From assembly GCF_015704865.1 (NCBI RefSeq), contig NZ_JADQTO010000020.1:62001-126000 (forward strand): a DNA stretch of 64,000 nucleotides, read 5' to 3'. The notes beneath the pieces are model-generated. The model was not told the origin of the DNA, did not search any database, and saw only the letters and a program-made list of their open reading frames with translations. The DNA is from Actinoplanes aureus (GTDB lineage Bacteria > Actinomycetota > Actinomycetes > Mycobacteriales > Micromonosporaceae). Positions 1-24,100 of the stretch are shown here, one piece after another (the first letter of the stretch is position 1; each line of letters begins with the position of its first letter). A program made the position numbers and the translations under genes.

Positions 1-2
1 CC

Positions 3-3000
3 GCACCCGGTGTCGCAGGCCAGGTGGACGTGATCGGGCAGGCGATCGACCGGGCCGGTGTGCCGGCCGAGACCATCACGTACCTCGAGGCGCACGGCAC
101 CGGTACCCCGCTCGGCGACCCGGTGGAACTGCGTGCGGCGGCGCAGGCGCTGGCCGGGCGCACCGACCGGGTGGGCTTCTGCACGGTGGGCTCGGTCAAG
201 CCGAACCTCGGCCATCTGGACAGCTGCGCCGGCATGGCCGGGCTGATCAAGACCGTGCTGATGCTCCAGCATCGGACCATGGTGCCCCTGGTCAACTTCG
301 AGCGACCGAACCCGGAGCTGGACCTGGAGGGCGGACCGCTGGTGCTGGGCACGACCGTGCGGGAGTGGAACACCGGCGGGAACCCGCGCCGGGCCGGTGT
401 CACCGCACTCGGCGTGGGCGGTACCAACGCCCACCTCATCGTGGAGGAGGCACCGGCTGTGCCGGCTCACCGCGGCAATGACCCGGGGGAGCGGGTGGCG
501 GTTCTGCCACTGTCAGCGGCGCATCCGGAAGCGCTGACGGAACTCGCCGGCAAGCTGCACGATCACCTGCGGGCGTACCCCCGGCTCGATGTCGCCGACC
601 TGGTCACCACCGCCGCGCTCGGCCGTTCCCACCTGAGGTACCGGACGGCGGTCGTCGGGGCGACGGCCACCGAGCTGGCGGAGGCGCTGCGGGACGCCAC
701 ACCGGTCGAGGTGGCTTCCGGTGAGCGGCCGCCGGCGATCACCTTCGCCTACGGCGGTCAGGGATCCGCCTTCGCGGGTATGGCCGCCGAGTTGTACGAG
801 GCGGTCCCGGCCTTCCGCGACGTTCTGGATGAGTGCGAGGAGGTATACCGGCAGGAGACCGGGGACAGCCTGCTGGCCTACCTGCGAGACGGCCGGGCCC
901 CGACCCCAAGCCAGGACACGGACCTGGCCCAACCGGCCCTCTTCGCTTTCCAGATGGCACACACCGCGATGTGGCGTTCTCTCGGCGTCGAGCCGGCCTT
1001 CGTGGTCGGGCACAGCGCCGGGGAGTACGCGGCACTCTGCGCGGCGGGCGCGATGAACGTCGCCGACGGTCTGCGCCTGATGATCGCGCGGGGACGGCTG
1101 CTGCGCCGGACCGCCCCCGGAGCGATGATCGCTGTCTTCGCCGGCGAGGCCGCCGTCGACGATCTCCGCACCCGGACCGGGGTGGAACTGGCCGCCGTCA
1201 ACGGCCGGACCGAGTACGTCGTCGCAGGTTCCGAGCGGGCGGTCGACGAAGCGATCGGCTGGCTCGACGAGCAGGCGATCACCTGGCACCGCCTCGCCGT
1301 CGACCGGGCGTTTCATACCGCGCTGCTCGACCCGGTCCTGAGCGAGTGGACCGGGTGCGCGGCGGCCGTACCGATGAAGCCCCTCGACATCCCCCTCGCC
1401 AGCACGCTGACCGGCACACTGCTCCACCCGGGAACCGTGGTGGGTGCCGCACACCTGCGCCAGCAGACCCGAGAGCCGGTACGGTTCGCCGACGCGCTGG
1501 CCGCGCTGAACGGCGTGGGCTGTGAGACGTTCCTGGAGATCAGCCCGGAGGCGGTTCTGACCGGGATCGCTCGCCGCTCCGGAACCGGCAGACGATGGAT
1601 CGCCGTGGCGGAGCAGGGCACCGGACCACTGCGCGCCCGCTCGACGGCCCTCGCCGAGCTCTATTCGCTCGGCGCCAACCTGGACTGGTCGCGGATCGCT
1701 CCCGGCGGTCGCCGCATCCCGCTACCCGGCTATCCGTTCCGGCGAGATCGGCACTGGACCGAGGCCCGCCCGCAGCAGGCTGGCCCGGAGCCCGCCGGTG
1801 TCGCACCGGTGAGTGACCCGGGACCGGTACTGGCCAGGATTCGCGAGCTCACCGCCCGGGAGATCGGCGTCGAGCCGGCCGCGATCAGCCCCGACGCGAC
1901 ATTTCTCGACCATGGCGCCGACTCACTGACGATGCTGCGAGTGGTTCAGCAGGTGCGCCGGCAGTTCGGGGTCGACATCGCCGTACGCCGCTTGTTCACT
2001 GACGCCGCCACTTGCCGCAAGCTCGCCGAGCTCATCGGCGGTGAGCGCGGCCCCGATGTCGCCGCCCCGCCTCCGGCGGCACCGGCGCTCCCAGAGGCCG
2101 ACTCGCAAAGCGTCGCGAGGGTCGTCGCCGAGCAGTTGCGCGTCACCGGCCAGCTCTTGGAGAACGTCACCACCCTCATGCGGGATCAGCTGAACATGTT
2201 GCGCGGTGACCCGGCGCCGGTCGCCGCGGTGCCGGTGACGGTCAAGCCATCGCCGGAGCGTGTGGCGACCCTAGCGCCGGCCATGAGCCCCGAACGACAG
2301 GCGGCCGACTTCAGCCTCTACTTCTTCGGCGACTACCCCGACTCGGATCAGAATCGCAAGTACGAAGCGATCATCGCGGCCGCCCGGTTCGCCGACGATC
2401 ACGGGTTTCACGGCGTGTGGCTGCCCGAGCGGCACTTCCACTCCTTCGGCGGTCTGTTCCCGAATCCCGTCGTCGTCGCCGCGGCGCTGGCCCGGGAGAC
2501 CTCGCGAGTCCGGATCAACGCCGGGTCGGTGGTGCTTCCCCTGCACAATCCGATCCGTGTCGCCGAGGAATGGTCGGTGGTCGACAACCTCTCCGACGGG
2601 CGCGTCGGCCTCTGCGTGGCCAGCGGCTGGCACGCCAACGACTTCGCGCTCCGGCCGGAGGCCTTCGGCCGGCACCGTGAGCTGACGTTCGAGCACCTCG
2701 AGACGGTACGGCGGCTGTGGTCCGGTGCGGCGGTACCGGCGACCTCCGGCTCCGGGGAGGCGATCGACGTACGCATCTATCCGCGGCCTCTGCAACCACT
2801 GCCGCCGCTGTCGGTGGCGGTGGTGTCGAACCCGGACACCTACCGCGCGGCCGCGGCTGCGGACGTCGGCGTGGTCACCAATCTGATGGTGCAGTCGGTG
2901 GAGCAACTGGCGGAGAACATCGCGCTGTACCGCCGGAGCAGGGCTGAGCACGGACACGATCCGGCTGGTGGCCGCGTGGTGGTGCTGGTGCACACCTACC

Positions 3001-6000
3001 TGGGCGCGGACCTGGAGAGGGTCCGGGCCGAGGCGTACGAACCGTTCTGCGACTACCTGCGATCGTCGCTCTCGCTGTTCGGTCAGGTCACCAACAGCCT
3101 CGGCATGCGCATCGACGAGGACACCCCGCCGGAGGACGTCGACTTCCTGCTGGAGCGGGCCTACCAGCGCTACTGCGCCGAACGGGCCCTGATAGGCACG
3201 CCCGAGACCGTCGGCCCGATCATCGACCGCCTCGTCCGCGCGGGGGCTGACGAGATCTCCTGCTTCATCGACTTCGGCCTACCGGCGGAACAGATGCTCG
3301 AGTCCCTCAACTTCGTCGACGAGGTGCGGCGCCGGCATCACCGTGACGACCGGACCGAGGCACCGGGTATCGCGCTGTCCCCGGCACAGCGGGGAATGTG
3401 GTTCCTCGAACAGCTGCATCCCGGCACCCTGAACTACCACGAGCCGAAAGCCGTGCGGTTGGACGGACCGCTCGACGTCAGCCGGCTTCGACGGGCGCTT
3501 GCCCGGGTGGTCGACCGGCACGCGCCGCTGCGGACGGTGTTCCGGCAGGTCAACGGCGAACCGCAACAGGTCGAGCTGCCGGCGGTGCGCGTCGAACTGC
3601 CGGTCCAGGACCGTCTGGGCGAGCCCGAGGCCCAGGTCCTGCGCTCGGTGCTGCAAGAGATGAACGTGACGCCGATCGACCTGGCCGCGGGACCGCTGCT
3701 GCGAGCCGCCCTGATCCGTCGCGGCCCCGATCGGCACCTGCTCGTGCTGTGCGTGCATCACATCGTCTTCGACTCGTTCTCCACGGCAGTCCTTCTCCGC
3801 GACCTCGCCGCCTTCTACCGCAGCGGACCGGACGGCCCGGACCCGCTTCCCGCGCTGCCCGTCACCTACGCCGCGCATCTGGCCACCCGCACACCCGACG
3901 CGGATCGGGCCGCCCGGGCGAGGGAGTACTGGCGACGTACCCTCGCTGGTGCCCCGTCGCTGGCGCTGCCCACTGACCCTCCCCGTGCGGCGTCGGGCGG
4001 CGGGAGCGGGGCGTCGCTCACCGTGGACTGGGACGCGGACCTCGCCGCTCGGGTCGGCGGTTTCAGCCGGGACCATCAAGTGACGCCGTTCATGACGCTG
4101 ACGGCAGCGCTCGCCGGCGTTCTCGGCAGGTTCAGCGGCCAGCACGACCTGGTGCTCGGCACCGCGCTGACCCATCGCCCGCCGGGCACAGAGGACCTGA
4201 TCGGCCTGTTCATCGACACCGTACCCCTGCGCATCGATCTCGCCGGCGACCCTTCGCTGGGTGAGCTCGCGCAGCGGGTGCGCGAGGTCAGCACCGAGGC
4301 GTACGAACACGCCGGTATCGGTTTCGACGGCATGGTCGCGGCCGTCAATCCGGAGCGTGAGTCGAGCCGCAATCCGCTCTTCCAGGTGCTGATCGAGTAC
4401 GAGAACCGGACGGACGTGGACTTCGATCCGCCGCTGTTGCGGGCCAGCAGCGTCGACGTGGCCAGCCATCGGGCGCCCCTGGACATCACCGTCTACCTGT
4501 CCAACCACGACCACGGCTTGCAGTGCCACGTCGAGTACAACACCGACCTCTTCGACGAGCGGACGATCAGCGCGGTGCTGCGTTACGCGGAGTCCATGCT
4601 GCGCCGAGCCGCTGCCGCCCCCGAGCTGGGCCTGGCCGACCTGACGGCTCCTACCGAGGCTGACCGCACGGCTCTGGCCGCATGGAGCGGCCGCCCCTAC
4701 GAGCAGCCGGCGGCCGGCCTGCACACCCTGTTCGAGACGCAAGCGCGCCGGGAACCCGATGCCGTCGCTCTGCGGACCGAGCTCGAGCCGGTGACCTACC
4801 GGGAGCTGGACCGGCGGGCGAACGCCTTGGCGTGGCGTCTGCACGACCGTGGCGTGCGGCCGGACGACATCGTGGGAATCTGCCTCCCCCGAGGTACCGA
4901 GCTCATCGTGGCCATCCTCGGCGTGCTCAAGGCCGGGGCGGCCTATCTACCGCTGGATCCGGCAGTGCCGTTGTCACGGCTGGCGTTCATGGCGCGAGAC
5001 AGCGGCGCCTGGTTGCTGGTAACCGGCGACGGGGCGCTGGCCGCGCAGCTCGAGCTGGAGGCGGTGGCGGTCGAGGGTGCGGAACCGCGATCGGTGGCGC
5101 CGCCGCCCGTACCGGTGGATCCGGACCGGCTGGCGTACTGCATCTACACGTCCGGCTCCACCGGGATGCCCAAGGGTGTTGCGGTGCCGCACCGCGGCCC
5201 GGTCAACCTGGTCGCGTACTACCTGCGGATCCGGTCGCCGATGCGGACCCTGCAATGGGTCTCACCGAGCTTCGACGTCAGTGTGCAGGAGATCTTCACA
5301 ACGCTGGCCTCCGGTGCGGAGTTGGTGCTGATCCCGAACGAAGCCCGGTACGAGCCCACAACGGTCGCGGAAACCGTCCGCCGCTTCGGCGTGCAGCGAC
5401 TCTTCATGACGTTCACCGCGTTGAAGTACCTGATGGACACGGATCCGGCGATGCCGTCACTGCGGGAGGTCGTCTCCGCGGGAGAACCGATGTTCCTCAC
5501 GCCTGCGCTCCGGTCCTTCTTCGCGAAGAGCCCCGGGTGCGCGCTCTACAACGAGTACGGCCCGACAGAGGCGTCCATCATCGCGACCGTTCAGCGCGTG
5601 GACCTGTCCGCCGGGGACCGCCCACCGATCGGCCGTCCCGTCGACAACGTCGAGGTTCACGTGCTCGACGACGCCGGACGACCCGTTCCGCCGGGCGCGG
5701 TCGGCGAAATCCACCTGGGCGGATGCTGCCTGGCCCGGGGTTACGTCGCCCGGCCTGACGAGACCGCGCAGAGTTTCGTTCCGGTGCCCGCGGTCGCCGC
5801 CCGGCGGCTGTACCGGACACGCGATCGGGGCCGCTGGTCGCCGGACGGAGCACTGGAGTACCTGGGGCGGGTCGACGATCAGGTGAAGATCCGGGGCTTC
5901 CGCGTCGAACCCGGTGAAGCCCAGCAGTCGCTGTCGCGGCTTCCGCAGGTCCGTGACGCGGCTGTCGTCGCCGGCACCGACCAGCGTGGGGAGACCTACC

Positions 6001-7691
6001 TGATCGGGTACGTGGTGCCGGAGGCGGGGGCGACGCTGACCGGGGAGGACCTCGCGCGCCGGCTGGCCGGCACGCTTCCCGGCTACCTGATTCCGACCGC
6101 ATGGGTACGCCTGAACGAGTTGCCGGTGAACACGAGCGGCAAGCTCGACCGCGCCGCCCTGCCACCGCCACGGCGTTCCCGGGACGAAGCCGGCGCCGCG
6201 CCGGTGACCGACACCGAGAAGGTCCTGCACGAGCTCTGGCGCACCGAGTTGGGGCTCGGCGAGATCTCCGTCGACGCCTCGTTCTTCGCCCTCGGCGGCC
6301 ATTCCCTGTCCGCGGTCGGGCTGGTCAACCGGATACGGACCGCTGTCGGTGTCGAAATCGGTGTGGCGGACCTGTTCCGCGCACCGACGATCCGGCGCAT
6401 GGCGCTCGAGATCGACAAGCGCGACAGCACCGAGACCGCCCCCGCGTCGAGCGTTCAGCAGCGTGCCTGGCATCTGCATCACGCCAGTGCCTACCCCGCC
6501 GTCTACAACGTGACGCACCGGATCGATCTGCGAGGACCGCTCGACATCGATGCTCTGCACCGGGCTCTGGCCGGGCTCGCGCAGCGGCATCCCGTCCTGC
6601 GCACCGGATTCGCGGTTCTCGACGGTGAGCTGCGCCAGGTCATCTCCCGGGAAGCCGGCATCGAGCTCCCGGTCGTCGATGTCGGGCCCGAGCCGGACCG
6701 CGTGCCTGCCTGGTGCCAGACCGAAGCCGCTACGCCGTTCGATCTCGACCGGGCACCGCTGTGGCGGGTGCGCCTGGCCGCGGCCGGCGAGCAGCACTGG
6801 GTGCTCGTCCTGGTGATGCATCACATCATCTGTGACGGCTGGTCCATCGGTGTCATCGCCCGGGAGCTTTCGGCCCGGTACGCCGCGGAGGTCGGCGCCG
6901 GATCGGCCGAGCTGGACACTCCGGTCCCCTACGGCGCCTACGTGCGGTGGCGGCAGGCCGCCTGCGCGCAGGAGCAGGACCGTCTCACGAGCTTCTGGCA
7001 GCGCCGCCTGGCCGGCGCCGACCTGCGTCTGCCCCTGCCCTACGACCACCCGCGACCAGACACACGGTTGTCGGGACGCGGAGGGCTACGCCGCTTCAGC
7101 TTCCCCGATCGGGCCGTCGAGGCGGTACGACAGTCGGCGAAGGAGCTCGACACCACGCCCGCTGCCGTACTGACCGCTGTGTTCAGCATCTGGCTGGGCC
7201 GGCTGTGCGACCGGAACGACCTGGTGCTCGCGCTCTCCAGCGCCAGCCGCACCCGGCCGGAACACGCGAGCGTGGTCGGACCCGTGGGCGAAGCCTTGCT
7301 GGTACGGCTGACCCAGCGGGACGGCATGCCCCTCGCGGACCTGGTGGCGCAGGTGAGGGAGCGGACGTTCGAGGCGATCGATCACCATCTGCTGCCGCTG
7401 CGCGAGGTCAGTCAGCTGGTCGGCCAAGAGCTTTCCAGCCCACAGATCCTGTTCACCGTCGTCACGACACCGCCCCCTGGGCTCACCCTGCCCGGTCTCA
7501 CGACGGAGATCGCCGGGGTCGCTGTCGACGGAGTCGCGCGTACGGAGTTGTACGTGGTGATGATCCACGGCGATGACGGCATCTCACTGGTGATCGAGTA
7601 CTCGGCAGACCTGTTCGAGAGCGAGACCATCCAGCGCTGGGGGGAGGACCTCATCACGACAGCACAGGAGGCCTGCGGGCCTCTCGGCTAG
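3..7691 (+). CDS. Hybrid PKS-NRPS with internal luciferase-like monooxygenase (5' partial)
   Basis: The frame is open from the left edge, so the start lies outside. Domains in order: the C-terminal part of a ketosynthase (HGTGTPLGDP, then KPNLGHLD); an acyltransferase with GHSAGEY (Ser codon near 1014) and an AFH motif that usually goes with malonyl-CoA; an ACP (GADSL, Ser near 1923); a flavin-dependent luciferase-like monooxygenase at about 2280-3345; a condensation domain with HHIVFD near 3755; an adenylation domain at about 4700-6160 (YTSGSTGMPKG, NEYGPTE, NTSGKLDR); a PCP (LGGHSL, Ser near 6303); and a second condensation domain with HHIICDG near 6820. The protein ends there with no thioesterase or reductase. 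The chain is therefore presumably passed on, or released by condensation with a free amine or alcohol. The substrate of the adenylation domain was not predicted. The next gene starts 42 bp downstream on the same strand. Confidence 0.95.
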   Translation, partial: APGVAGQVDVIGQAIDRAGVPAETITYLEAHGTGTPLGDPVELRAAAQALAGRTDRVGFCTVGSVKPNLGHLDSCAGMAGLIKTVLMLQHRTMVPLVNFERPNPELDLEGGPLVLGTTVREWNTGGNPRRAGVTALGVGGTNAHLIVEEAPAVPAHRGNDPGERVAVLPLSAAHPEALTELAGKLHDHLRAYPRLDVADLVTTAALGRSHLRYRTAVVGATATELAEALRDATPVEVASGERPPAITFAYGGQGSAFAGMAAELYEAVPAFRDVLDECEEVYRQETGDSLLAYLRDGRAPTPSQDTDLAQPALFAFQMAHTAMWRSLGVEPAFVVGHSAGEYAALCAAGAMNVADGLRLMIARGRLLRRTAPGAMIAVFAGEAAVDDLRTRTGVELAAVNGRTEYVVAGSERAVDEAIGWLDEQAITWHRLAVDRAFHTALLDPVLSEWTGCAAAVPMKPLDIPLASTLTGTLLHPGTVVGAAHLRQQTREPVRFADALAALNGVGCETFLEISPEAVLTGIARRSGTGRRWIAVAEQGTGPLRARSTALAELYSLGANLDWSRIAPGGRRIPLPGYPFRRDRHWTEARPQQAGPEPAGVAPVSDPGPVLARIRELTAREIGVEPAAISPDATFLDHGADSLTMLRVVQQVRRQFGVDIAVRRLFTDAATCRKLAELIGGERGPDVAAPPPAAPALPEADSQSVARVVAEQLRVTGQLLENVTTLMRDQLNMLRGDPAPVAAVPVTVKPSPERVATLAPAMSPERQAADFSLYFFGDYPDSDQNRKYEAIIAAARFADDHGFHGVWLPERHFHSFGGLFPNPVVVAAALARETSRVRINAGSVVLPLHNPIRVAEEWSVVDNLSDGRVGLCVASGWHANDFALRPEAFGRHRELTFEHLETVRRLWSGAAVPATSGSGEAIDVRIYPRPLQPLPPLSVAVVSNPDTYRAAAAADVGVVTNLMVQSVEQLAENIALYRRSRAEHGHDPAGGRVVVLVHTYLGADLERVRAEAYEPFCDYLRSSLSLFGQVTNSLGMRIDEDTPPEDVDFLLERAYQRYCAERALIGTPETVGPIIDRLVRAGADEISCFIDFGLPAEQMLESLNFVDEVRRRHHRDDRTEAPGIALSPAQRGMWFLEQLHPGTLNYHEPKAVRLDGPLDVSRLRRALARVVDRHAPLRTVFRQVNGEPQQVELPAVRVELPVQDRLGEPEAQVLRSVLQEMNVTPIDLAAGPLLRAALIRRGPDRHLLVLCVHHIVFDSFSTAVLLRDLAAFYRSGPDGPDPLPALPVTYAAHLATRTPDADRAARAREYWRRTLAGAPSLALPTDPPRAASGGGSGASLTVDWDADLAARVGGFSRDHQVTPFMTLTAALAGVLGRFSGQHDLVLGTALTHRPPGTEDLIGLFIDTVPLRIDLAGDPSLGELAQRVREVSTEAYEHAGIGFDGMVAAVNPERESSRNPLFQVLIEYENRTDVDFDPPLLRASSVDVASHRAPLDITVYLSNHDHGLQCHVEYNTDLFDERTISAVLRYAESMLRRAAAAPELGLADLTAPTEADRTALAAWSGRPYEQPAAGLHTLFETQARREPDAVALRTELEPVTYRELDRRANALAWRLHDRGVRPDDIVGICLPRGTELIVAILGVLKAGAAYLPLDPAVPLSRLAFMARDSGAWLLVTGDGALAAQLELEAVAVEGAEPRSVAPPPVPVDPDRLAYCIYTSGSTGMPKGVAVPHRGPVNLVAYYLRIRSPMRTLQWVSPSFDVSVQEIFTTLASGAELVLIPNEARYEPTTVAETVRRFGVQRLFMTFTALKYLMDTDPAMPSLREVVSAGEPMFLTPALRSFFAKSPGCALYNEYGPTEASIIATVQRVDLSAGDRPPIGRPVDNVEVHVLDDAGRPVPPGAVGEIHLGGCCLARGYVARPDETAQSFVPVPAVAARRLYRTRDRGRWSPDGALEYLGRVDDQVKIRGFRVEPGEAQQSLSRLPQVRDAAVVAGTDQRGETYLIGYVVPEAGATLTGEDLARRLAGTLPGYLIPTAWVRLNELPVNTSGKLDRAALPPPRRSRDEAGAAPVTDTEKVLHELWRTELGLGEISVDASFFALGGHSLSAVGLVNRIRTAVGVEIGVADLFRAPTIRRMALEIDKRDSTETAPASSVQQRAWHLHHASAYPAVYNVTHRIDLRGPLDIDALHRALAGLAQRHPVLRTGFAVLDGELRQVISREAGIELPVVDVGPEPDRVPAWCQTEAATPFDLDRAPLWRVRLAAAGEQHWVLVLVMHHIICDGWSIGVIARELSARYAAEVGAGSAELDTPVPYGAYVRWRQAACAQEQDRLTSFWQRRLAGADLRLPLPYDHPRPDTRLSGRGGLRRFSFPDRAVEAVRQSAKELDTTPAAVLTAVFSIWLGRLCDRNDLVLALSSASRTRPEHASVVGPVGEALLVRLTQRDGMPLADLVAQVRERTFEAIDHHLLPLREVSQLVGQELSSPQILFTVVTTPPPGLTLPGLTTEIAGVAVDGVARTELYVVMIHGDDGISLVIEYSADLFESETIQRWGEDLITTAQEACGPLG

Positions 7692-7733
7692 CATCAACCC
7701 GGCTATCGCACGCGTGACCAGCGCTTCGGAGGC

Positions 7734-8996
7734 ATGGTGAACACGACTTCCCGCACCGCGACGGTGACGCTGCCCGGCTCCAAGTCAGTGACCGCTCGTG
7801 CGCTGTTCCTGGCCGCTCTGGCGGACGGTGAGAGCCGGCTGGTCGCTCCGCTCGAGGCCGCCGACACGGTCGCCTTCGCCGACGGGCTCGCGGCGCTCGG
7901 CTTCGGTGTCGTCCGGGACGGCGACGTCTGGAGCATCACCGGCGACCCGTCCGGGCCGCCCGCCGACACCGCGGAGGTGTGGTGCCACGACGCCGGCACC
8001 GCGGCGCGCTTCCTGCCCGGGTTGGTGTCACTCGGTACGGGTCAGTTCGCCATCGACGCCAGCGAGCAGATGCGGGCCCGTCCGATGCGGCCGTTGCTCG
8101 AGGCGCTACGTGCGCTGGGCGTGCGGGTGCACGCGGCGGACGGTGACCGGCTTCCCCTGCGGATCGACGCCGACGGCGTGGCGGGCGGCGTGGTGCGGGT
8201 GGACGCCGGCGCCTCCAGCCAGTACCTGAGCGCCCTCTGCATGATGGGTCCCGGTACCAAGAACGGGCTGAGCATCGAGGTGCTCGACGAGGTGTCCGTG
8301 CCGTACGTGGAGCTGACCCTCGCGATGATGCGTGAGTTCGGCGCCTCGGTGTCGCGGCAGGGTTCGCGGATCACCATCGCCCCGGGCACCTACCAGGCGC
8401 GGGAGTACGTCATCGAGCCGGACGCGTCCACCGCCTCGTACTTCTTCGCCGCGGCGGCGGTCACCGGCAACACCGTGACCTTGCTCGGCCTCGGCCGCCG
8501 GTCGAGGCAGGGCGATCTGCGTTTCGCCACCGAGGTTCTCCCCGCGATGGGCTGCGAGGTCACGGTCGCCGACGACCGGACCACGGTGACCGGCCCGGCG
8601 CGGTTGCGCAGTCCCGGCACGGTCGTCATGCGCGACATCAGTGACACGATGATGACCCTGGCCGCGATCGCGCCCTTCGCCGACGGACCGGTCCGGATCA
8701 CCGACGTGGCGAACTGCCGGGTCAAGGAATCCGACCGGATCGACGCGATGTCCTCGGCGCTGGGCGCGTGCGGGATCGCCACCAGCTCCGGGCCGGACTG
8801 GTTGGAGATCACTCCCGGCCGTCCCCGGGCGGCGACGGTACAGACCCGGGCCGATCACCGCATCGCGATGAGCATGAGCGTGCTCGGCCTCCGTACCCCG
8901 GGCGTTCGTTTCGACGACCCGGCCTGCGTGCGCAAGACCTTCCCCGACTTCCACTCGGTGTTCGCCGGCCTTCAGGAGACCTGGCGGCGGGGCTGA
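7734..8996 (+). CDS. EPSP synthase (3-phosphoshikimate 1-carboxyvinyltransferase) family protein
   Basis: A 420-residue member of the enolpyruvyl transferase family, which joins phosphoenolpyruvate to shikimate-3-phosphate. Visible motifs are LPGSKSVTAR (Lys17, Ser18, Arg22), the DAGTA loop at 86-90 where most relatives have NAGTA, GASSQYLSAL, DASTASYFFAAA, an Asp in ISDTMMT, RVKESDRI, DHRIAMS and a C-terminal RKTFPD. The active-site framework therefore looks intact. GGAGG sits only one base before the ATG, so GTG at 7737 is an equally good start. The position 42 bp after the NRPS and just before a second primary-metabolism homologue suggests a cluster-specific copy, either a resistant target or a biosynthetic enzyme. 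A misplaced housekeeping aroA is not excluded. Confidence 0.88.
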   Translation: MVNTTSRTATVTLPGSKSVTARALFLAALADGESRLVAPLEAADTVAFADGLAALGFGVVRDGDVWSITGDPSGPPADTAEVWCHDAGTAARFLPGLVSLGTGQFAIDASEQMRARPMRPLLEALRALGVRVHAADGDRLPLRIDADGVAGGVVRVDAGASSQYLSALCMMGPGTKNGLSIEVLDEVSVPYVELTLAMMREFGASVSRQGSRITIAPGTYQAREYVIEPDASTASYFFAAAAVTGNTVTLLGLGRRSRQGDLRFATEVLPAMGCEVTVADDRTTVTGPARLRSPGTVVMRDISDTMMTLAAIAPFADGPVRITDVANCRVKESDRIDAMSSALGACGIATSSGPDWLEITPGRPRAATVQTRADHRIAMSMSVLGLRTPGVRFDDPACVRKTFPDFHSVFAGLQETWRRG

Positions 8997-9045
8997 CAGG
9001 GCTCCGACTCCGCCACGACGTTCGTTGATCAGGATGGATGACGAC

Positions 9046-10236
9046 ATGCGCCGTGTGGTGCTGCTGGGCTCGACCGGCTCGGTGGGTACGCAGGCGGTCG
9101 ACGTCGTGCGACGTCACCGCGACCGTTTCCGGGTGCACGGCCTCGCCGCCGGCGGTAGCCGGCTGTCGTTGCTGGCCGAGCACGTGCTCGACCTGAGCCC
9201 GGACGTCGTGGCGGTGGCCGACCGCGACGCCGAGCCGTCATTCAGGTCGGCGATCCGGGCAGAGGCCGAGCGGCGAGGACTCAAGCCGGCCGACCATCCG
9301 CACCCGGCTGTCCTCACCGGCCCGGAAGGAGTCGAGGAGCTCGCGGCCGGCGGCGTGGACGTGGTGCTCAACGCCATCGACGGAGCGCTGGGGCTGGCCT
9401 CCACTCTGGCCGCGGTACGCACGGGGAATCTGGTGGCTCTGGCCAACAAGGAGTCGCTGATCGTCGGTGGCGACCTGATCAGGCGGATCGCCCAGCCCGG
9501 GCAGCTGATTCCGGTGGACTCCGAGCACGCCGCGATCGCACAGTGCCTCCGCTCCGGCGCGCGCGGCGAGGTGCACCGGCTCGTACTCACCGCCACCGGC
9601 GGGCCGTTCCGCGGCCGGGCACGTACCGAACTGGCCGCCGTCACACCGGCGCAGGCGCTGGCCCATCCGACCTGGTCCATGGGCCCGGTCATCAGCATCA
9701 ACTCGGCGACGCTCGTCAACAAGGGGCTGGAGGTCATCGAAGCGCACCTGCTCTTCGACGTGCCCTTCGACGACATCGTGGTGATGCTGCACCCGACCTC
9801 GGAGATCCACTCCATGGTGGAGTTCTCCGACGGGGCGGTCATCGCACAGGCCAGCCCGCCGGACATGCGGCTGGCCATCGCCTTCGGGCTGGCCTTCCCC
9901 GCTCGCCTGCCCGGGGTCGCGCGCGCCTTCGACTGGACCAAGTCCTACGACTGGCGACTCGACCCACTGGACGACGTGGCTTTTCCCGCGGTCGACCTCG
10001 CCCGCCACGTCGGCCGTACCGGCGACGGCGCTCCGGCGGTCTACAACGCCGCCAACGAGATCTGCGTGCAGCGTTTCCTGGCCGAGCGGCTGCCGTTCCT
10101 GGACATCGTCGACACCGTGGCGCGGGTGGTGGGGGAGTACCAGCCGAGCACGATCCGCGACCTGGCGGACCTGGACGCGGTGGATACCTGGGCCCGGGCC
10201 CGAGCCACCGAGATCACTGATCGCCGAACACCCTGA
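9046..10236 (+). CDS. dxr: 1-deoxy-D-xylulose 5-phosphate reductoisomerase (DXR/IspC) homologue
   Basis: The family converts DXP to methylerythritol phosphate with NADPH and Mn/Mg in the isoprenoid MEP pathway. Seen here: the N-terminal GSTGSVG nucleotide loop, NKESLI, the metal-binding VDSEH, TATGGPFR, HPTWSMG and NKGLEVIEAH. At 396 residues it has normal family length. The flap region reads HPTSEIHSM where housekeeping enzymes usually have HPQSxIHSM, a substitution next to the fosmidomycin-binding loop. ATG at 9046, 8 bases after AGGATGG, is preferred to TTG at 9025 or ATG at 9034. It follows the EPSP-synthase-like gene by 49 bp and probably belongs to the same transcript. It could be a resistant second copy, a biosynthetic enzyme or the only dxr of the genome. 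Confidence 0.88.
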   Translation: MRRVVLLGSTGSVGTQAVDVVRRHRDRFRVHGLAAGGSRLSLLAEHVLDLSPDVVAVADRDAEPSFRSAIRAEAERRGLKPADHPHPAVLTGPEGVEELAAGGVDVVLNAIDGALGLASTLAAVRTGNLVALANKESLIVGGDLIRRIAQPGQLIPVDSEHAAIAQCLRSGARGEVHRLVLTATGGPFRGRARTELAAVTPAQALAHPTWSMGPVISINSATLVNKGLEVIEAHLLFDVPFDDIVVMLHPTSEIHSMVEFSDGAVIAQASPPDMRLAIAFGLAFPARLPGVARAFDWTKSYDWRLDPLDDVAFPAVDLARHVGRTGDGAPAVYNAANEICVQRFLAERLPFLDIVDTVARVVGEYQPSTIRDLADLDAVDTWARARATEITDRRTP

Positions 10237-10255
10237 CCACTGGTCGCTGGAGACC

Positions 10256-10888
10256 TCACCCGGCCAGACCGGCCCGCCACGCCCAGGTGGCCATGCCCAC
10301 CCGGTTGTTGAGCCCCAGCTTGGCCTGGATGTTCGCGACGTGGGTCTTCACGGTCCCGGCGGAGATGAACAGCTCGGCGCCGATCTGCGCGTTCGTGAAG
10401 CCCTGAGCGACCAGCCGTACGATTTCGGTCTCGCGGTGTGTCAGGGGGTTGGGCACCGAGGGCCGGTCGGCCGTGGCCAACGCGCGCAGCAGCCGGACGG
10501 TGACCTGAGGGCTGATCAGCGCGTCACCGGCCATCGCCGCGCGGACCCCCTCGACCAGCAGTGCCGGCCCGGACCGCTTCAGCAGGAAGCCGCAGGCGCC
10601 GTTGCGCAGCGCGGCGTCCACGTACTCGTCGAGGTCGAAGGTGGTGACCACGACCACCCGCAGGCCGGCTTCGGTGAGCAGCCGGGTCAGTTCCAGTCCG
10701 TCGATGCCGGGCATCCGGATGTCGGTGAGTACGACGTCCGGCCGCAGGCTGCGTGCCATCGCCAGGGCCGTGGTGCCGTCGGTGGCCTCGCCGACCACCG
10801 TGATGTCGGGCTGGGAGTCCAGGACGAGGCGGAAACCGCTGCGCACGTCCGGCTGGTCGTCGGCGAGCAGGACCCGGGTGCTGTTCAT
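10256..10888 (-). CDS. NarL/DesR-type response regulator (LuxR HTH)
   Basis: A 210-residue transcription factor. The N-terminal receiver domain has the acidic pocket at Asp10-Asp11, the phospho-acceptor Asp56 in LTDIRMPG and a conserved Lys in GFLLKRSG. The C-terminal LuxR helix-turn-helix reads LTHRETEIVRLVAQGFTNAQ and then TVKTHVANI. Its start overlaps the stop of the histidine kinase (ATGA), so the two form an operon. The likely target is the palindrome at 11888-11911 between the kinase and the divergent membrane protein gene. Confidence 0.95.
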   Translation of the reverse strand: MNSTRVLLADDQPDVRSGFRLVLDSQPDITVVGEATDGTTALAMARSLRPDVVLTDIRMPGIDGLELTRLLTEAGLRVVVVTTFDLDEYVDAALRNGACGFLLKRSGPALLVEGVRAAMAGDALISPQVTVRLLRALATADRPSVPNPLTHRETEIVRLVAQGFTNAQIGAELFISAGTVKTHVANIQAKLGLNNRVGMATWAWRAGLAG

Positions 10889-11868
10889 GCCGCGACCACC
10901 GGGATGACGGCGACGACTTCCCAGCCCCGCTCACACGGCCCGGCCGACAGGGTGCCGCCACCCGCCTCGACCTGCTCCCGCAGGCCGGAGAGGCCCCGCC
11001 CGCCGCGCCTGTCACGCCGCGGCTGGGGTGGCGGCCCGGCCGTGTCGTTGCGGACCCGCACCTCGATACCGGAGGCGTCGCCGGTGACGGACACGTCGAC
11101 CCGGGTCGCTGCCGGCGCGTGCCGCCGGACGTTCGTCAGGGCCTCGACCACGATCCGGTACGCCACCGCGGCGCTGTCGCGGGGAACCTCGCCGTTCAGG
11201 GAGTTCCGGACCAGCCGCGCGTCGAGGTGACCCGCGGCGCGGAACCGGTCGACCAGGCCCGGCAGGTCGTCCAGCGTGGGCATCGGCCGTACCGTGGCGG
11301 CGTCCGGTTCGTGCAGCATGCCGACCATCCGGTCCATCGTGGCCAGCGCCGCCAGACCGGCGGCCTCGATCCGCGCCAGGGCCGGACCGGCCGCCTCCGG
11401 CCGGCTGTCCGCGACGAAGCGGGCCGCCTGCGCCTGCGCCACGATCCCGCTGATGTCATGGGCGACGAAGTCGTGCAGGTCACGCGCCACCTGCAGGCGC
11501 TGAGCATGCCGGGCCTGCTCGACGGCCACGGCCCGCCGGTGCGCCATCAGCCGGGGGTAGCCGCCGACGACGACCGCGACGACGGCGGGCATCGTCCAGA
11601 CCGCTGCGGCGGCGATCCGTTGCGCCGCGGGCATGCCGTCGGTGAACGACCAGAGCACCAGCGCCATCGTCGTCCCGGCGAGCCCGGCAGCAGGGGCGAT
11701 GTGCCGGTGCGGACCCCACCGCACGGCCACCGCCAACAGCACCGCGAGGACGGCCATCACCAGCATGAACAGGTACGGCGGGCGGTCGAGGTCGGCCACG
11801 AACGTCACACCCAGCGAGCAGCCGCTGGCCGCCATGCTGATCCAGCCGAGGTGCCGACGCGTCATCAC
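10885..11868 (-). CDS. Sensor histidine kinase, HisKA_3 / DesK class
   Basis: A 327-residue membrane kinase. Four or five hydrophobic stretches fill residues 8-105. A HisKA_3 dimerisation helix follows with ARDLHDFVAHD (His132 is the likely phosphorylated residue). The ATP-binding domain shows EALTNVRRHAP and GRGLSGLREQV. No extracytoplasmic sensor domain is apparent, so the signal may be sensed within the membrane, as in DesK. It is translationally coupled to the response regulator. The gene starts 21 bases from the 24-bp palindrome. Confidence 0.94.
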   Translation of the reverse strand: MMTRRHLGWISMAASGCSLGVTFVADLDRPPYLFMLVMAVLAVLLAVAVRWGPHRHIAPAAGLAGTTMALVLWSFTDGMPAAQRIAAAAVWTMPAVVAVVVGGYPRLMAHRRAVAVEQARHAQRLQVARDLHDFVAHDISGIVAQAQAARFVADSRPEAAGPALARIEAAGLAALATMDRMVGMLHEPDAATVRPMPTLDDLPGLVDRFRAAGHLDARLVRNSLNGEVPRDSAAVAYRIVVEALTNVRRHAPAATRVDVSVTGDASGIEVRVRNDTAGPPPQPRRDRRGGRGLSGLREQVEAGGGTLSAGPCERGWEVVAVIPVVAA

Positions 11869-13843: not shown

Positions 13844-15190
13844 ATGACGGCTGTGACTCGGGAACCGCGCCAGATCGCGGAACTGCGCCGCGAGGATCGC
13901 GGCCTGCCCTGGATCGGCAACCTTTTCAACTATCAGCGGGACCCGCTGCGGCTCTACCGGCGCCACTGGGAGCACTACGGCCCGGTCGCTCCGTCCTACA
14001 ACCTCGGCCGGACCACGGTGCTGCTGCTCGGCCCGGACGCCTGCGGCGAGGCGCTGCAGAACCGGGACAAGGCGTTCGCCAACAAACCGGCCTGGTCACA
14101 GCTGGTCGGCCCGTTCTTCCGCCGCGGCCTGATGCTCATCGACTTCGACGACCATCGGGATCATCGGCGGATCATGCAGGAGGCGTTCACCCGGGACCGG
14201 CTGGACGGCTACACCCGGCGGCTGCACCCGGCCATCGAGCGGGGCATGGCGAGCTGGGCGGCCGGCAGACAGTTCCCGGCGCACTGGCGCCTCAAGCAGC
14301 TCACCCTCGACATCGCCGCTGACCTGTTCATGGGCGGTGCACGCGACACCAGCGAGGCCGAGATGGCCCGGGTCAACAAGGCGTTCATCGCCTGCGTGCA
14401 GGCCGCCGCCGGGGTCGTGCGGGCCGACGTGCCGCTCACCCGCTGGGGCCGCGCCTACCGCGGCCGGCAGGTGCTGGAGAGGTTCCTGCGGGGGTATCTT
14501 CCGGCCAAGCGGGCCACGGCGACCGACGACATCTTCTCGGTGCTCTGCCACATCGAGACCGACGACGGCGCCCGCTTCTCCGACGACGACGTCATCAATC
14601 ACATGATCTTCCTGATGATGGCGGCGCACGACACCTCGACCATCACCACCTCCACGATCCTGCAGTACCTCGGCCAGCACCCCGCCTGGCAGGAACGCTG
14701 CCGGGCCGAGGCGCTGGCACTCGGGCCGGCGCCGGACCGGGCCGAGCTGGAGTCGCTGGTCTCGATCGACCTGGTCATGCGCGAGGCGCTGCGCCTGCGG
14801 GCGCCGGTACCGGTCCTGGTCCGCTACACCGTCAAGGACACCGTCGTGCAGGGCGTGCGCATCCCGGCCGACACCATGTGCGCGCTCGGCATCCAGTTCA
14901 CCCACTTCATGGAGGAGTACTGGACCAACCCGATGGTCTTCGACCCTGAACGCTTCGGGCCGGAACGCCGCGAGGACCGCTCGCACCGGTTCGCCTGGGA
15001 GCCGTTCGGCGGCGGCGTGCACAAGTGCATCGGCCTGCACTTCGCCGGCCTGGAGATCAAGGCGATCATGCACCGGCTGCTGCGGGGATACCACTGGAGC
15101 GTCGACCCCGGCTACGTCCCGCCGCTGGACCACCATGCGCTGCCGTTCCCCAAGGACGGCCAGCCGATCGTGCTGATCCGGAACTCATGA
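13844..15190 (+). CDS. Cytochrome P450 monooxygenase
   Basis: A 448-residue soluble bacterial P450. The I-helix oxygen-activation motif AAHDT is at 260-264, the ExxR pair is in EALR (314-317), and the heme loop FGGGVHKCIG has its Cys ligand at 395. It is the first gene of a six-gene series linked by overlaps and should make the first hydroxylation of a hydrophobic substrate. GAGGTGAGCC precedes the ATG. Redox partners are not encoded nearby. The substrate is unknown; the downstream enzymes suggest that a carbon is oxidised up to a carboxylate. Confidence 0.96.
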   Translation: MTAVTREPRQIAELRREDRGLPWIGNLFNYQRDPLRLYRRHWEHYGPVAPSYNLGRTTVLLLGPDACGEALQNRDKAFANKPAWSQLVGPFFRRGLMLIDFDDHRDHRRIMQEAFTRDRLDGYTRRLHPAIERGMASWAAGRQFPAHWRLKQLTLDIAADLFMGGARDTSEAEMARVNKAFIACVQAAAGVVRADVPLTRWGRAYRGRQVLERFLRGYLPAKRATATDDIFSVLCHIETDDGARFSDDDVINHMIFLMMAAHDTSTITTSTILQYLGQHPAWQERCRAEALALGPAPDRAELESLVSIDLVMREALRLRAPVPVLVRYTVKDTVVQGVRIPADTMCALGIQFTHFMEEYWTNPMVFDPERFGPERREDRSHRFAWEPFGGGVHKCIGLHFAGLEIKAIMHRLLRGYHWSVDPGYVPPLDHHALPFPKDGQPIVLIRNS

Positions 15191-16764
15191 CCGCGGTCAG
15201 CGCCCACCGCCCGGCCTGGCTCACCGACGCCCGGCTCGCTTCGCTGCGGCGATGGGTCGCGACTCCCGCGTCCGGCGGAAACGGCACGACCACGGCCGTC
15301 GCACCCTACGACGCCTTGCCGACCGTCCCGGTGCCGGCGTGCACGCCGGAGGACGTCGAAGGTGCCGCCGGCCAGGCACGTGCCGCGCAAGAGCGATGGA
15401 CCGAGATTTCGTACGCTGCCCGCGCCGAGGTCGTGCTCCGCTTCCACGACCTGCTCGTCGAGCGGCAGGACGAGGTGCTCGACCTCATCCAGTGGGAGAT
15501 GGGCAAGGCGCGTTTTCACGCCTGGCAGGAGGTCCTGCTGCTCGGCACGGTGGCCCGTCACTACGCCCGGCACGGGCAGACCTATCTCGAGGACCGGCCG
15601 GTGCGTCCGGCGGTCCCGGTGGTCACCCGGGTCCGGGAACTGCGCATCCCCAAGGGCGTCGTCGGGATCGTGTCGCCCTGGAACTACCCGCTCTACCTCG
15701 GCGTCGGCGACCTGATCCCGGCGCTGCTCGCCGGTAACGCCGCCGTCAGCAAGGCGGACTCACAGACCCCGTTGACCCTGCTGTGGGCCCGGGCTCTGAT
15801 GGCCGAGGCCGGCCTGCCGGAGAACGTCTGGCAGGTGGTCTCCGGTGACGGGCCGACGATCGGCGCGGCTGTCGTCGACTCCGCCGACTACCTCTGCTTC
15901 ACCGGCTCGACCGCGACCGGCCGGCTCGTGGCCGAGCGCGCCGCCCGCCGCCTCATCGGAACCTCCCTCGAACTCGGCGGCAAGAACCCGCTGATCGTCC
16001 GCGCCGACGCCGACCTGGACCTCGCCGCCCGCGGCACCGCCGACGCCGCGTTCGCCAACAGCGGCCAGATGTGCATCCACATCGAGCGGGTGATCGTGCA
16101 CGCGGACGTGTACGACACGTTCACCGAGACGCTGCTGGCCGCCACCAGCGCGCAGCGGCTGGGCCAGGGTTTCGACTACGGCTACGACCTCGGCCCGCTG
16201 GCCGGTCAGGCCCAGCTGGACCGGGTCGACGCGCACGTGCGGGACGCGGTCGCCAAGGGCGCCACGGTGCTGGCCGGCGGCCGCGCCCGCCCCGACATCG
16301 GCCCGTACGCCTACCAGCCCACCGTCCTCGCCGGCGTCACCGACGACATGGACGTGTGTCTCGGCGAGACCTTCGGCCCGGTCATCGCGCTGCACCGGGC
16401 GACCGACGACGCGGCCGCGATCGCTGCGGCCAACCGCGGTCGCCACGGCCTGTCCGCCAGCATCTTCAGCCGGAACACCGCCGAGGCCGAGGCGATGGCC
16501 CGCCGGATCCGTGCCGGTGCGGTGAACATCAACGACGGGGCCGGCCTCGCCATCGGCACGGTGGAGGCACCGATGGGCGGGCGCGGGGACAGCGGCCTGG
16601 GCCGCCGCCACGGAGCGGAGGGGATGCGCAGGTTCACCGACGCGCAGACCGTGGCCGTCTCCCGTGTCGGCCCGGTCGGGCCCCCGCCGGGCCGGCCGGC
16701 GGAAACGTTCGTGGCGCTCGGCAACAAGCAATTGAGGCTGCTGCGGCGGCTTGGCATCCGGTGA
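15187..16764 (+). CDS. Aldehyde dehydrogenase (NAD(P)+), succinate-semialdehyde-dehydrogenase-like
   Basis: 525 residues of the ALDH superfamily. Seen: the Rossmann motif FTGSTATG (238-245), the general base Glu262 in LELGGKNP and the catalytic Cys296 in NSGQMCIH. The ATG overlaps the P450 stop (ATGA), so translation is coupled. In this operon it probably oxidises an aldehyde, formed from the P450 alcohol by the SDR, to an acid for CoA activation. The succinate-semialdehyde likeness is from general sequence appearance only. Confidence 0.95.
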   Translation: MTAVSAHRPAWLTDARLASLRRWVATPASGGNGTTTAVAPYDALPTVPVPACTPEDVEGAAGQARAAQERWTEISYAARAEVVLRFHDLLVERQDEVLDLIQWEMGKARFHAWQEVLLLGTVARHYARHGQTYLEDRPVRPAVPVVTRVRELRIPKGVVGIVSPWNYPLYLGVGDLIPALLAGNAAVSKADSQTPLTLLWARALMAEAGLPENVWQVVSGDGPTIGAAVVDSADYLCFTGSTATGRLVAERAARRLIGTSLELGGKNPLIVRADADLDLAARGTADAAFANSGQMCIHIERVIVHADVYDTFTETLLAATSAQRLGQGFDYGYDLGPLAGQAQLDRVDAHVRDAVAKGATVLAGGRARPDIGPYAYQPTVLAGVTDDMDVCLGETFGPVIALHRATDDAAAIAAANRGRHGLSASIFSRNTAEAEAMARRIRAGAVNINDGAGLAIGTVEAPMGGRGDSGLGRRHGAEGMRRFTDAQTVAVSRVGPVGPPPGRPAETFVALGNKQLRLLRRLGIR

Positions 16765-16778
16765 ATGAAGGGACCGGC

Positions 16779-17951
16779 ATGGATTTCGACGACACCCCCG
16801 ACGAGGCGGTCTGGCGTGCCGAGGTGCGCGCCTTCCTCGAACAGCACAGCGGTGAGCGACCGTCCGATCGCGACGCTGCCCGGGCCTGGCAGGCCGCCCT
16901 GTACGAAGCCGGATTCGTCGGGGTCGCCTGGCCGGTGGAGGCCGGCGGCCTGGGTGGCACGCTGATGCAGCAGGCGATCGTCGACCAGGAGATGGCCCGG
17001 CTCGGCCTGCCCGCTCTGATCAACCTCATCGGCATCGGCATGTGCGGTCCGACCGTGATCGTGCACGGCAGCGACGGCCAGAAGGAGCGCTATCTCCAGC
17101 GGCTGCTGCGGGCCGACGACCTGTGGTGCCAGCTGTTCAGTGAGCCGGAGGCCGGCAGCGATCTGGCCGGGCTGCGTACCAGAGCGGTCCGCGACGACGA
17201 CGGCGGCTGGCGGGTCACCGGGCAGAAGGTGTGGACGACGCTCGCGCACATCGCCGACTTCGGGATCCTGCTCACCCGTACCGATCCTGATGTTCCCAAG
17301 CACCGCGGCTTGACCATGTTCGTCGTCGACATGAAGGCTCCGGGCGTCACGGTACGGCCGTTGAAGCAGATGAACGGCGAGGCGCACTTCAACGAGGTGT
17401 TCTTCGACGACGTGGCCGTACCCGACGCCGAGCGGCTCGGTGAGGTCGGCGACGGCTGGCGGGTGGCGCTGACGACGCTGATGAGCGAGCGGCTCTCGCT
17501 CGGCGGCGGCGGCACGTCGATCGGGCCCAAGCCCGAAGCGGTGGCCCGGCACGTCGCTGAACGCATCGGCGCGCTCTCCGCCGACCGGCAGGTGCTGGCC
17601 CGCCAGCAGCTGGGTCGCGGGTACGTCGCCTCGCTCGGGGCCCGCTACACCGGTTACCGCCAGCTCTCGAAGCTCAGCCGCGGCGAGCTGCCCGGTCCGG
17701 AGGCGTCGGCCGGGAAGCTGAGCGGCACCCGGTCGGCGCGTGACCTGACCGACCTCGCTGTTCGTGTCCTCGGAGACGACGCGCGCGTCGACGGTGACAC
17801 CTGGCAGACCATGCAGGCCGTGCTTCCGGGCATGGCGATCGCGGGCGGCAGCGACCAGGTGCTGCGCAACATCATCGGCGAGCGGGTCCTCGGTCTGCCC
17901 GCCGAACCCCGTGCCGACAAGGGCGTCACGTTCAAGGAGAGCCTGGCATGA
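16779..17951 (+). CDS. Acyl-CoA dehydrogenase, large-type subunit
   Basis: A 390-residue FAD-dependent acyl-CoA dehydrogenase. Family features include LFSEPEAGSDLAGLRTRA, TGQKVWTT, and GGSDQVLRNIIGERVLGLP at the C-terminus. ATG at 16779 follows GAAGGGA; a nearby ATG at 16765 is in another frame. Its stop overlaps the next acyl-CoA dehydrogenase gene. Adjacent unequal pairs like this usually encode heterotetramers (alpha2-beta2) acting on bulky CoA esters such as steroid side-chain intermediates. That inference fits the P450 and ligase beside it. Confidence 0.94.
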   Translation: MDFDDTPDEAVWRAEVRAFLEQHSGERPSDRDAARAWQAALYEAGFVGVAWPVEAGGLGGTLMQQAIVDQEMARLGLPALINLIGIGMCGPTVIVHGSDGQKERYLQRLLRADDLWCQLFSEPEAGSDLAGLRTRAVRDDDGGWRVTGQKVWTTLAHIADFGILLTRTDPDVPKHRGLTMFVVDMKAPGVTVRPLKQMNGEAHFNEVFFDDVAVPDAERLGEVGDGWRVALTTLMSERLSLGGGGTSIGPKPEAVARHVAERIGALSADRQVLARQQLGRGYVASLGARYTGYRQLSKLSRGELPGPEASAGKLSGTRSARDLTDLAVRVLGDDARVDGDTWQTMQAVLPGMAIAGGSDQVLRNIIGERVLGLPAEPRADKGVTFKESLA

Positions 17952-18925
17952 ACTTCGACCTGGACCAAGAACACCTGGACCTGGCCGGCGGCGCTCGTGA
18001 GTTCCTGTCGGCGGCGGCTTCCCCGGCGGCGGCCCGGGCGGCGCTGGAAGAGGGCACCGGCGTCCGGCCGGGCCGCGCGGAGCTGGTCAAGAGCGGCTTC
18101 GCGACGATCACGGTCCCGGAGAGTGCCGGCGGGGGCGGCGGCAGTGTCCTGCAGCTCGCCGTGGTGGCCGAGCAGGCTGGGCGGGTGCTCGCGGGTCCGT
18201 CGCTGGTGAACTTCGCGCGGGCGGCCGTGCTCCTGGACGGCGACGCGGACCGGCTGGCCGGCCTGGCCGACGGCAGCCTGGGCGTCGCGGTCGTCGACGA
18301 CAGCGGTCCGGTCCTGGACGCCATCGGCGCCGACACCTTCCTGGCGCTGCGCGACGGCGCCCTGGTCTGCGGGCCGGGCGCGGTCACCGCCCGGGAGCCG
18401 ATCGACCCGACCCGCGGTCTCGGTGATGTCGCCCTGGACGAGACCACCGTTCTGGTACGCGACGCCGGCGAACGGTGGCAGCGGGCCGAGCGCGTCGGCC
18501 GTACCATCCTCGCCGCCGAAGGCCTGGGTGCCGCCGCCCGCCTGCTGGAGATGGGCGTGGCGTACGCGAAGGACCGCCACGCGTTCGGCCGTCCGATCGG
18601 CTCGTACCAGGCGATCAAGCACATGCTCGTCGACGTCTACGTCGAGGTGGAGCAGCTGCGGTCGCTGGTCTGGTGGGCCGCCTGGGCCGCCGGCCACGCG
18701 CCCGGCGAGCTTCCCCTGGCCGCGGCCGCCGCCAAGGCCGCGGCGGCCACCACCCTGGAGCACGCGGCCGAGACGGTGATCCAGGTGCACGGCGGCATCG
18801 GGTTCACCTGGGAACACGACGCGCACCTGTACTGGCGGCGCGCCAAGGTGGACCGATTCCTGCTCGGAGACGACGTGGCGGCCTTCGACGAGGTCGCCCG
18901 GCTCGCGATGGAGGCGGCATCATGA
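17948..18925 (+). CDS. Acyl-CoA dehydrogenase, small-type subunit
   Basis: 325 residues, shorter than a typical 380-400-residue acyl-CoA dehydrogenase. The C-terminal GGIGFTWEHDAHLYWRRA matches the subunit that carries the catalytic Glu in heteromeric dehydrogenases of steroid side-chain degradation (established for FadE-type pairs; assignment here by motif). AFGRPIGSYQAIKHMLVD is the conserved C-domain stretch. It overlaps both neighbours by ATGA and probably forms one enzyme with the preceding gene product. Confidence 0.94.
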   Translation: MNFDLDQEHLDLAGGAREFLSAAASPAAARAALEEGTGVRPGRAELVKSGFATITVPESAGGGGGSVLQLAVVAEQAGRVLAGPSLVNFARAAVLLDGDADRLAGLADGSLGVAVVDDSGPVLDAIGADTFLALRDGALVCGPGAVTAREPIDPTRGLGDVALDETTVLVRDAGERWQRAERVGRTILAAEGLGAAARLLEMGVAYAKDRHAFGRPIGSYQAIKHMLVDVYVEVEQLRSLVWWAAWAAGHAPGELPLAAAAAKAAAATTLEHAAETVIQVHGGIGFTWEHDAHLYWRRAKVDRFLLGDDVAAFDEVARLAMEAAS

Positions 18926-22776: not shown

Positions 22777-24024
<1,248 letters not shown>

Positions 24025-24052
24025 CCCCGGCCCGCTTCCTGACACTGCTCCT

Positions 24053-24082: not shown

Positions 24083-24100
24083 CCTCAGCGGAGGTAATTC

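Follow-up and report, generated by a model that had tools for sequence, protein, structure and literature searches.

The window analysed here is a stretch of 64,000 nucleotides from Actinoplanes aureus (C23:62001–126000, contig NZ_JADQTO010000020.1), part of a 10.7 Mb genome in 108 contigs, and it carries genes for an accessory 5-enolpyruvylshikimate-3-phosphate synthase (EPSPS) and an accessory 1-deoxy-D-xylulose 5-phosphate reductoisomerase (DXR) directly behind a polyketide synthase–nonribosomal peptide synthetase (PKS-NRPS) gene. The EPSPS gene (aroA2; 7737–8996, + strand) has a GTG start, with ATG 7734 also possible (open reading frame 7734–8996), and the DXR gene (dxr2; 9034–10236, + strand) has ATG 9034 as preferred start, with TTG 9025 and ATG 9046 as alternatives. 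The window holds the 3' part of the PKS-NRPS gene (1–7691, + strand), which starts 2.8 kb before the window (position -2829, C23:59171) and encodes 3506 amino acids in full. Its domain order is acyl-AMP-ligase-like A, T, KS, AT, ACP, MupA/Atu3671-type luciferase-like monooxygenase, C, A, T, C, the likeness to acyl-AMP ligases lying in the loading domain. Open reading frames, strand and equivalog scores bear out the original prediction of EPSPS- and DXR-like genes in series behind the synthetase, with 399 bits for EPSPS on TIGR01356 (AroA, cut-off 287) and 354 bits for DXR on TIGR00243 (Dxr, cut-off 316).

All three genes are co-directional, with a gap of 42 bp between PKS-NRPS and EPSPS as predicted; the predicted 49 bp between EPSPS and DXR holds for ATG 9046 and becomes 37 bp with the preferred start or 28 bp with TTG 9025. 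No promoter-like site (the scan covering the sigma-70-type consensus only) and no terminator-like site was found in 7400–10600, and GC content and third-position GC of both genes resemble those of the rest of the operon. We infer that EPSPS and DXR are co-transcribed with the synthetase operon. A further aroA lies at C44:254040–255257 (43% identity to the window EPSPS) and a further dxr at C1:17338–18510 (59% identity to the window DXR), the latter upstream of rseP- and ispG-like genes (named by eye), which excludes the possibility that the window holds the only copies in the genome. A feature sought in self-resistance genes, a second copy beside a housekeeping gene, is therefore found for both enzymes; a place in the cluster operon is suggested by shared direction, gaps of 42 and 37–49 bp and the lack of a terminator-like site.

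The original prediction drew attention to the HPTSEIHSM motif of the DXR (codons 9790–9816, + strand), which is present as stated and corresponds to the changes Q253T and V255E relative to the E. coli enzyme, with S254 and H257 kept. These positions are less telling, since Glu occurs at 253 in two Bacilli and 255 is variable. The more telling change, S186T, was absent from that prediction: by alignment, a Thr codon (9595–9597, + strand) stands at the position of E. coli Ser186, the phosphate/phosphonate-binding serine. According to excerpts of a review (PMC9782300), Ser186, Ser222, Asn227 and Lys228 engage the phosphonic acid group through a network of hydrogen bonds; excerpts of PMC4149570 contain nothing on Ser186. 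The residue is Ser in 69 of the 70 other rows of an actinobacterial alignment, the exception being a plasmid-borne DXR of Kineococcus radiotolerans, and in a mixed 10-row alignment Thr again occurs in the window and Kineococcus sequences and Ser in the eight other rows; the Kineococcus DXR also has V255R. The window DXR thus lacks the Ser186 of housekeeping-type Dxr. All other catalytic, metal and substrate residues are kept (K125, D150, S151, E152, H209, W212, M214, S222, N227, K228, E231, S254, H257, P274 and M276 in E. coli numbering). Across 145 near-invariant columns the window DXR deviates at 12 (median over rows 0), and only three of the 70 other rows deviate more, two of them distant outgroup rows (15 and 14) and the third the Kineococcus row (13).

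No counterpart of the window DXR was found at E 1e-150 in any other of the 67 genomes of the genus; this threshold, like those used for the class sample (1e-140) and for family f19 (1e-148), is strict, and more divergent second copies would escape it. The nearest matches, with up to 67% identity, come from f19, a family that the tree places with a Nonomuraea sequence. The end branch of the window DXR in a 41-row tree measures 0.82 (median 0.14), and the window sequence joins the Kineococcus DXR with support of 100/99, a grouping for which the program warns of long branches meeting; when Kineococcus is omitted the window DXR remains with the f19 rows (97/97). An origin as a duplicate of the organism's own housekeeping dxr was rejected by the approximately unbiased (AU) test (p 0.00125). 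The ratio of nonsynonymous to synonymous substitution rates (dN/dS; NG86, near saturation) is 0.41 against the own housekeeping dxr and 0.38 against Kineococcus. The Kineococcus gene lies on plasmid pKRAD01 (L035, 7998–9170) beside a helix-turn-helix gene; the annotation shows no biosynthetic genes in its vicinity, and the plasmid lacks an EPSPS.

Visual inspection of PDB-match alignments shows that the window EPSPS keeps the catalytic residues K, S, R, SSQ, D, KExxR, HR and K at what we take to be the corresponding E. coli positions, and both accessory enzymes are apparently catalytically competent. Within the genus, EPSPS matches at E 1e-85 occur in seven of 67 genomes (own genome counted), namely the own genome, G036 (82% identity), G039 (80%), G015 (54%) and three others (46–47%). 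The copies of 80–82%, carried by two of the 66 other genomes, adjoin neither a DXR nor the window cluster, and tblastn with the cluster-region genes found no DXR and no window synthetase around the EPSPS of G036, G039 or G015, each of which has one DXR (E 1e-40). In G036 a 1282-aa adenylation-domain protein, 31–36% identical to the adenylation domains of the cluster, lies 5 kb beyond EPSPS, separated from it by four called genes; the EPSPS of G039 has, 6 kb away, a two-component pair that is 36–49% identical to the pair in the window (described below); and in G015 EPSPS adjoins apparent mobile-element genes (named by eye). The EPSPS tree unites the window, G036 and G039 copies in one clade (100/100), and a larger clade takes in the copies of G266 and G015 as well as Streptomyces-type second copies. 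The genomes called Streptomyces-type here, 17 in number, belong to genus g28 of family f21; they are assigned to Streptomyces on the ground that their DXRs group with that of a named Streptomyces.

The DAGTA sequence of the phosphoenolpyruvate (PEP)/glyphosate loop (codons 7989–8003, + strand) is likewise present as predicted, and its departure from NAGTA is real, but it is common to relatives and not specific to the window, occurring also in G036, G039, G266, G105 and plasmid shikimate-operon copies. Of the Streptomyces-type genomes, 16 of 17 read DGATT instead (in 17 rows, since one genome is represented twice) and the 17th, G105, has DAGTA; DGATT also occurs in G015 and in PDB 7m0o. As a trait of the EPSPS clade, DAGTA was rejected as a resistance mutation. 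In E. coli, G96A is tied to glyphosate tolerance; Ala at this position, a trait of class IV glyphosate-tolerant EPSPS, is not present in the window enzyme. The best PDB match of the window EPSPS (447.6 bits) is the S. sviceus enzyme 7m0o, which we take to be the 'class IV' glyphosate-tolerant EPSPS DGT-28; its residue at the G96 position is Ala, whereas the window reads DAGTA, and the DGATT loop of 7m0o is that of the Streptomyces-type second copies, members of the wider clade of the window EPSPS. The Streptomyces plasmids NZ_CP108007.1 and NZ_CP108489.1 carry an operon in which a relative of the window EPSPS (about 54%) stands with 3-deoxy-D-arabino-heptulosonate 7-phosphate (DAHP) synthase, chorismate mutase, prephenate dehydrogenase, aroC, aroB and transketolase. 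Pairwise dN/dS among the three close copies is 0.26 (NG86). Given the close homologues elsewhere in the genus, the clade-wide loop and this dN/dS, the window EPSPS is, judged by its relatives, a conserved accessory enzyme and not one that arose for the cluster.

Gene order was compared in 21 genomes picked for carrying this EPSPS type (18 from the class sample and three from the genus), each of which has only one DXR at E 1e-40 and two or more EPSPSs at E 1e-30. In five of them (G239, G309, G451, G406, G282) the EPSPS and DXR matches share a strand and are no more than 250 bp apart; in G429 the distance is 0.9 kb, and the remaining 15 show no proximity. The five and G429 all belong to the 17 Streptomyces-type genomes. 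In the five, a second EPSPS with DGATT stands directly upstream of the sole dxr without a synthetase, and rseP- and ispG-like genes (named by eye) follow dxr in the three neighbourhoods viewed. Order and direction are those of the window and EPSPS is a second copy in both settings, but the Streptomyces-type dxr is a sole copy of another DXR lineage and the synthetase is missing. The original prediction had named the same gene order in relatives without a synthetase as a refuting finding, and this is partly borne out: the order exists in these five of 17 genomes, and the nearest EPSPSs of the genus have neither DXR nor cluster. A shared transfer of the pair from a Streptomyces-type locus was rejected, with DXR identity of 57–60% there against up to 67% in f19 (AU p 0.0164). 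This places the window DXR outside the Streptomyces-type lineage with moderate rather than strong confidence, because it is a long branch. Of 58 DXR loci drawn from the f19 search and the class-wide one, none has an EPSPS in its 1.5-kb flanks. EPSPS–DXR pairing thus recurs, and the window instance looks independent, judged by its DXR lineage.

The predicted + operon consists of genes for an ATP-grasp protein, a crotonyl-CoA carboxylase/reductase (CCR), a second ATP-grasp protein, a major facilitator superfamily (MFS) transporter, PKS-NRPS, EPSPS and DXR. The first ATP-grasp protein has the L-amino acid ligase 4wd3 as closest PDB match (71 bits) and relatives (E 1e-25) in seven of the 66 other genomes of the genus (31–37% identity). 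A divergent operon (C23:36061–53727) begins with P450, DapF, A-T, MFS, C, A-MT-T, class III aminotransferase and luciferase-like proteins and further encodes C-A-T, an ABM-like protein, a 2-oxoglutarate (2OG) enzyme, an HrmI-like diiron protein and a lysine-2,3-aminomutase-like radical SAM protein. The diiron oxygenase scores 439 bits to HrmI (PDB 9n1a) and the 2OG protein 203 bits to 'BsmA domain containing protein' structures (9dq0); from its family, its neighbours and this match we infer that the 2OG enzyme is the HrmJ/BelL counterpart. Excerpts of PMC10764440 describe an HrmI/HrmJ/DapF triad for nitrocyclopropylalanine in hormaomycin and belactosin. Since a triad of this kind lies in the divergent operon, a nitrocyclopropyl residue is expected, and the cluster product is probably a peptide containing nitrocyclopropylalanine or a derivative.

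Compared with the hormaomycin/belactosin module (HrmI/BelK, HrmJ/BelL, HrmT/BelM), the window cluster shares HrmI-like, putative HrmJ/BelL-like and DapF genes and has in addition the radical SAM protein, the ATP-grasps, CCR and a PKS-NRPS with a luciferase-like monooxygenase. The radical SAM gene (C23:52435–53727; L012, 17435–18727) adjoins the HrmI-type gene. Neither the radical SAM protein nor EPSPS nor DXR was found (0 of 80, E 1e-15) in the flanks, at most 10 kb each side and some shorter, of the best 80 of 94 confirmed HrmI-type loci. Among the family matches of the cluster genes there is no pointer to chorismate or isoprenoid use. Right after the EPSPS–DXR pair the cluster is bounded by a convergent two-component system at 10256–11868, with a LuxR-type response regulator (10256–10888, - strand), which marks the end of the + operon, and a sensor histidine kinase (10885–11868, - strand). 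Further along are an apparently catabolic row of P450, aldehyde dehydrogenase, two acyl-CoA dehydrogenases, AMP-ligase and short-chain dehydrogenase/reductase genes (13844–21212) and GH11 and GH43 glycosidases (23002–25768).

A DXR linked to a cluster beside a housekeeping one is also found in producers of Dxr inhibitors of the fosmidomycin/FR-900098 family, where, in the excerpts available, dxr is termed a self-resistance gene (PMC9296572). The window differs from these in that no motif-bearing PEP mutase was found and in having a PKS-NRPS, an adjoining EPSPS and S186T. On plasmid pBM700 of Priestia megaterium a cluster (L228, NC_014023.1 143159–151263) pairs, like the window operon, a DXR with two ATP-grasp proteins, the second of which is 31% identical over its full length to the first gene product of the window operon. 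Its other products are a weakly N-oxygenase-like protein, an AAC(3)-type acetyltransferase and a fusion of a nucleotidyltransferase with a CobD-like pyridoxal phosphate (PLP) domain (174 bits, below the model cut-off); an MFS gene adjoins it, and no PEP mutase is named in the annotation of 143–164 kb. The acetyltransferase has no PDB match at 1e-10 and, going by Pfam types, presumably resembles FR-900098 enzymes. This cluster may make an N-acyl-N-hydroxy amino-alkyl phosphate akin to fosfoxacin and FR-900098, with DXR serving as immunity gene. DXR and ATP-grasp proteins therefore recur together, yet S186T is no general mark of cluster-linked DXRs, because the Priestia DXR keeps Ser186.

We tentatively posit that EPSPS and DXR are operon-linked spare targets providing self-resistance by target duplication, a reading to which we give somewhat less than an even chance. 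Spare copies of two essential enzymes, both established targets of herbicides or antibiotics, would be made along with the cluster from the last two genes of a peptide/polyketide operon; the product or a related metabolite would inhibit the housekeeping enzyme, and the spare copies would keep the shikimate and methylerythritol phosphate (MEP) pathways running. An accessory EPSPS was already at hand in the genus and may have joined for the same purpose as DXR. The long branch and the phosphate-site change of DXR, set against no distinctive change in EPSPS, make self-resistance most likely for DXR and weaker for EPSPS, so that the earlier suggestion of duplicated resistant targets fits DXR better than EPSPS. 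That the product is a peptide-polyketide, possibly with two warheads, inhibiting both EPSP synthase and DXP reductoisomerase, with aroA2 and dxr2 as paired immunity genes, seems to us quite unlikely.

Several observations weigh against self-resistance. The active site of the EPSPS shows no distinctive change, the enzyme is present in two relatives without the cluster, and we know of no natural EPSPS inhibitor. S186T is not tied to clusters, since the cluster-linked Priestia DXR has Ser186 and the Kineococcus Thr DXR has no biosynthetic neighbours, and the long DXR branch could reflect relaxed constraint or an altered substrate. A PEP mutase (PepM)-derived phosphonate is unlikely as the Dxr inhibitor because none of five PF13714 hits in the genome (four over cut-off) lies on the window contig or has the EDKx5NS motif in the stretches checked. 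The point is not conclusive, since Dxr inhibitors other than phosphonates are possible; fosfoxacin, for one, is a phosphate. Finally, no second copy of the cluster was found in the genus genomes or among the best 80 of 94 HrmI-type loci.

Alternatively, the genes may be passengers, an accessory aroA and dxr that landed at the cluster edge without a tie to its product. Close EPSPS copies do stand in varied places (G036, G039), the distant 54% copy of G015 lies beside apparent mobile-element genes (by eye), a related DXR occurs on the Kineococcus plasmid, and the pair sits at the cluster boundary before the convergent two-component system; yet two same-direction insertions within 42 and 37–49 bp behind the synthetase are in our judgement, not by computation, improbable, and we hold this account to be rather doubtful. 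Extra EPSPS and DXR could also boost flux through the shikimate and MEP routes to feed a pathway nearby, such as that of the meroterpenoid-type cluster on the same contig (18.8–28.8 kb), which requires isoprenoid units, and the plasmid operons that join a related EPSPS (about 54%) with DAHP synthase, aroB, aroC, chorismate mutase and transketolase suggest a supply role for the wider clade. However, 41 kb, with a BTAD-type regulator and a transposase, separate that cluster from the pair, and supplying it would account for DXR at most; the genes scanned included no DXS, no DAHP synthase and no chorismate-using family, and S186T is left unexplained, all of which makes precursor supply unlikely. 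The meroterpenoid-type cluster itself (C23:18798–28829, L014) encodes a polyprenyl synthetase, UbiA, a Pyr4-type cyclase, an FAD oxidoreductase and an AroB-like enzyme. The AroB-like enzyme matches 4p53 'Cyclase' (374 bits), which we take to be the valiolone synthase ValA, above dehydroquinate synthases; this points away from the shikimate pathway, and shikimate supply by this upstream gene was rejected on that ground. The product of the meroterpenoid-type cluster is possibly a prenylated C7-cyclitol.

The remaining alternative, raised in the original prediction, is that DXR-like (and EPSPS-like) proteins were recruited to act on a non-canonical substrate and yield a building block. The long DXR branch with changes round the phosphate site and the other unusual chemistry of the cluster are consistent with this, but both enzymes score above their equivalog cut-offs with catalytic residues kept, and recruitment is disfavoured for EPSPS because its 80–82% homologues, with dN/dS of about 0.26 (NG86), occur in genomes without the cluster. 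Recruitment of DXR is conceivable, and overall we consider this account very unlikely.

Should the self-resistance reading hold, the cluster would point to a natural inhibitor of two plant/bacterial targets, and the gene pair would serve as a marker for finding it; dxr alone is already known as such a marker (PMC9296572, in the excerpts available). For EPSPS, no report of such a role was found by title or start of abstract among the papers searched, and the text of PMC12723261 contains neither 'EPSP' nor 'aroA'. If the dual-inhibitor reading were true, A. aureus would make a natural EPSPS inhibitor together with a Dxr inhibitor formed without PEP mutase. The S186T DXR offers a direct test case for lowered phosphonate binding.

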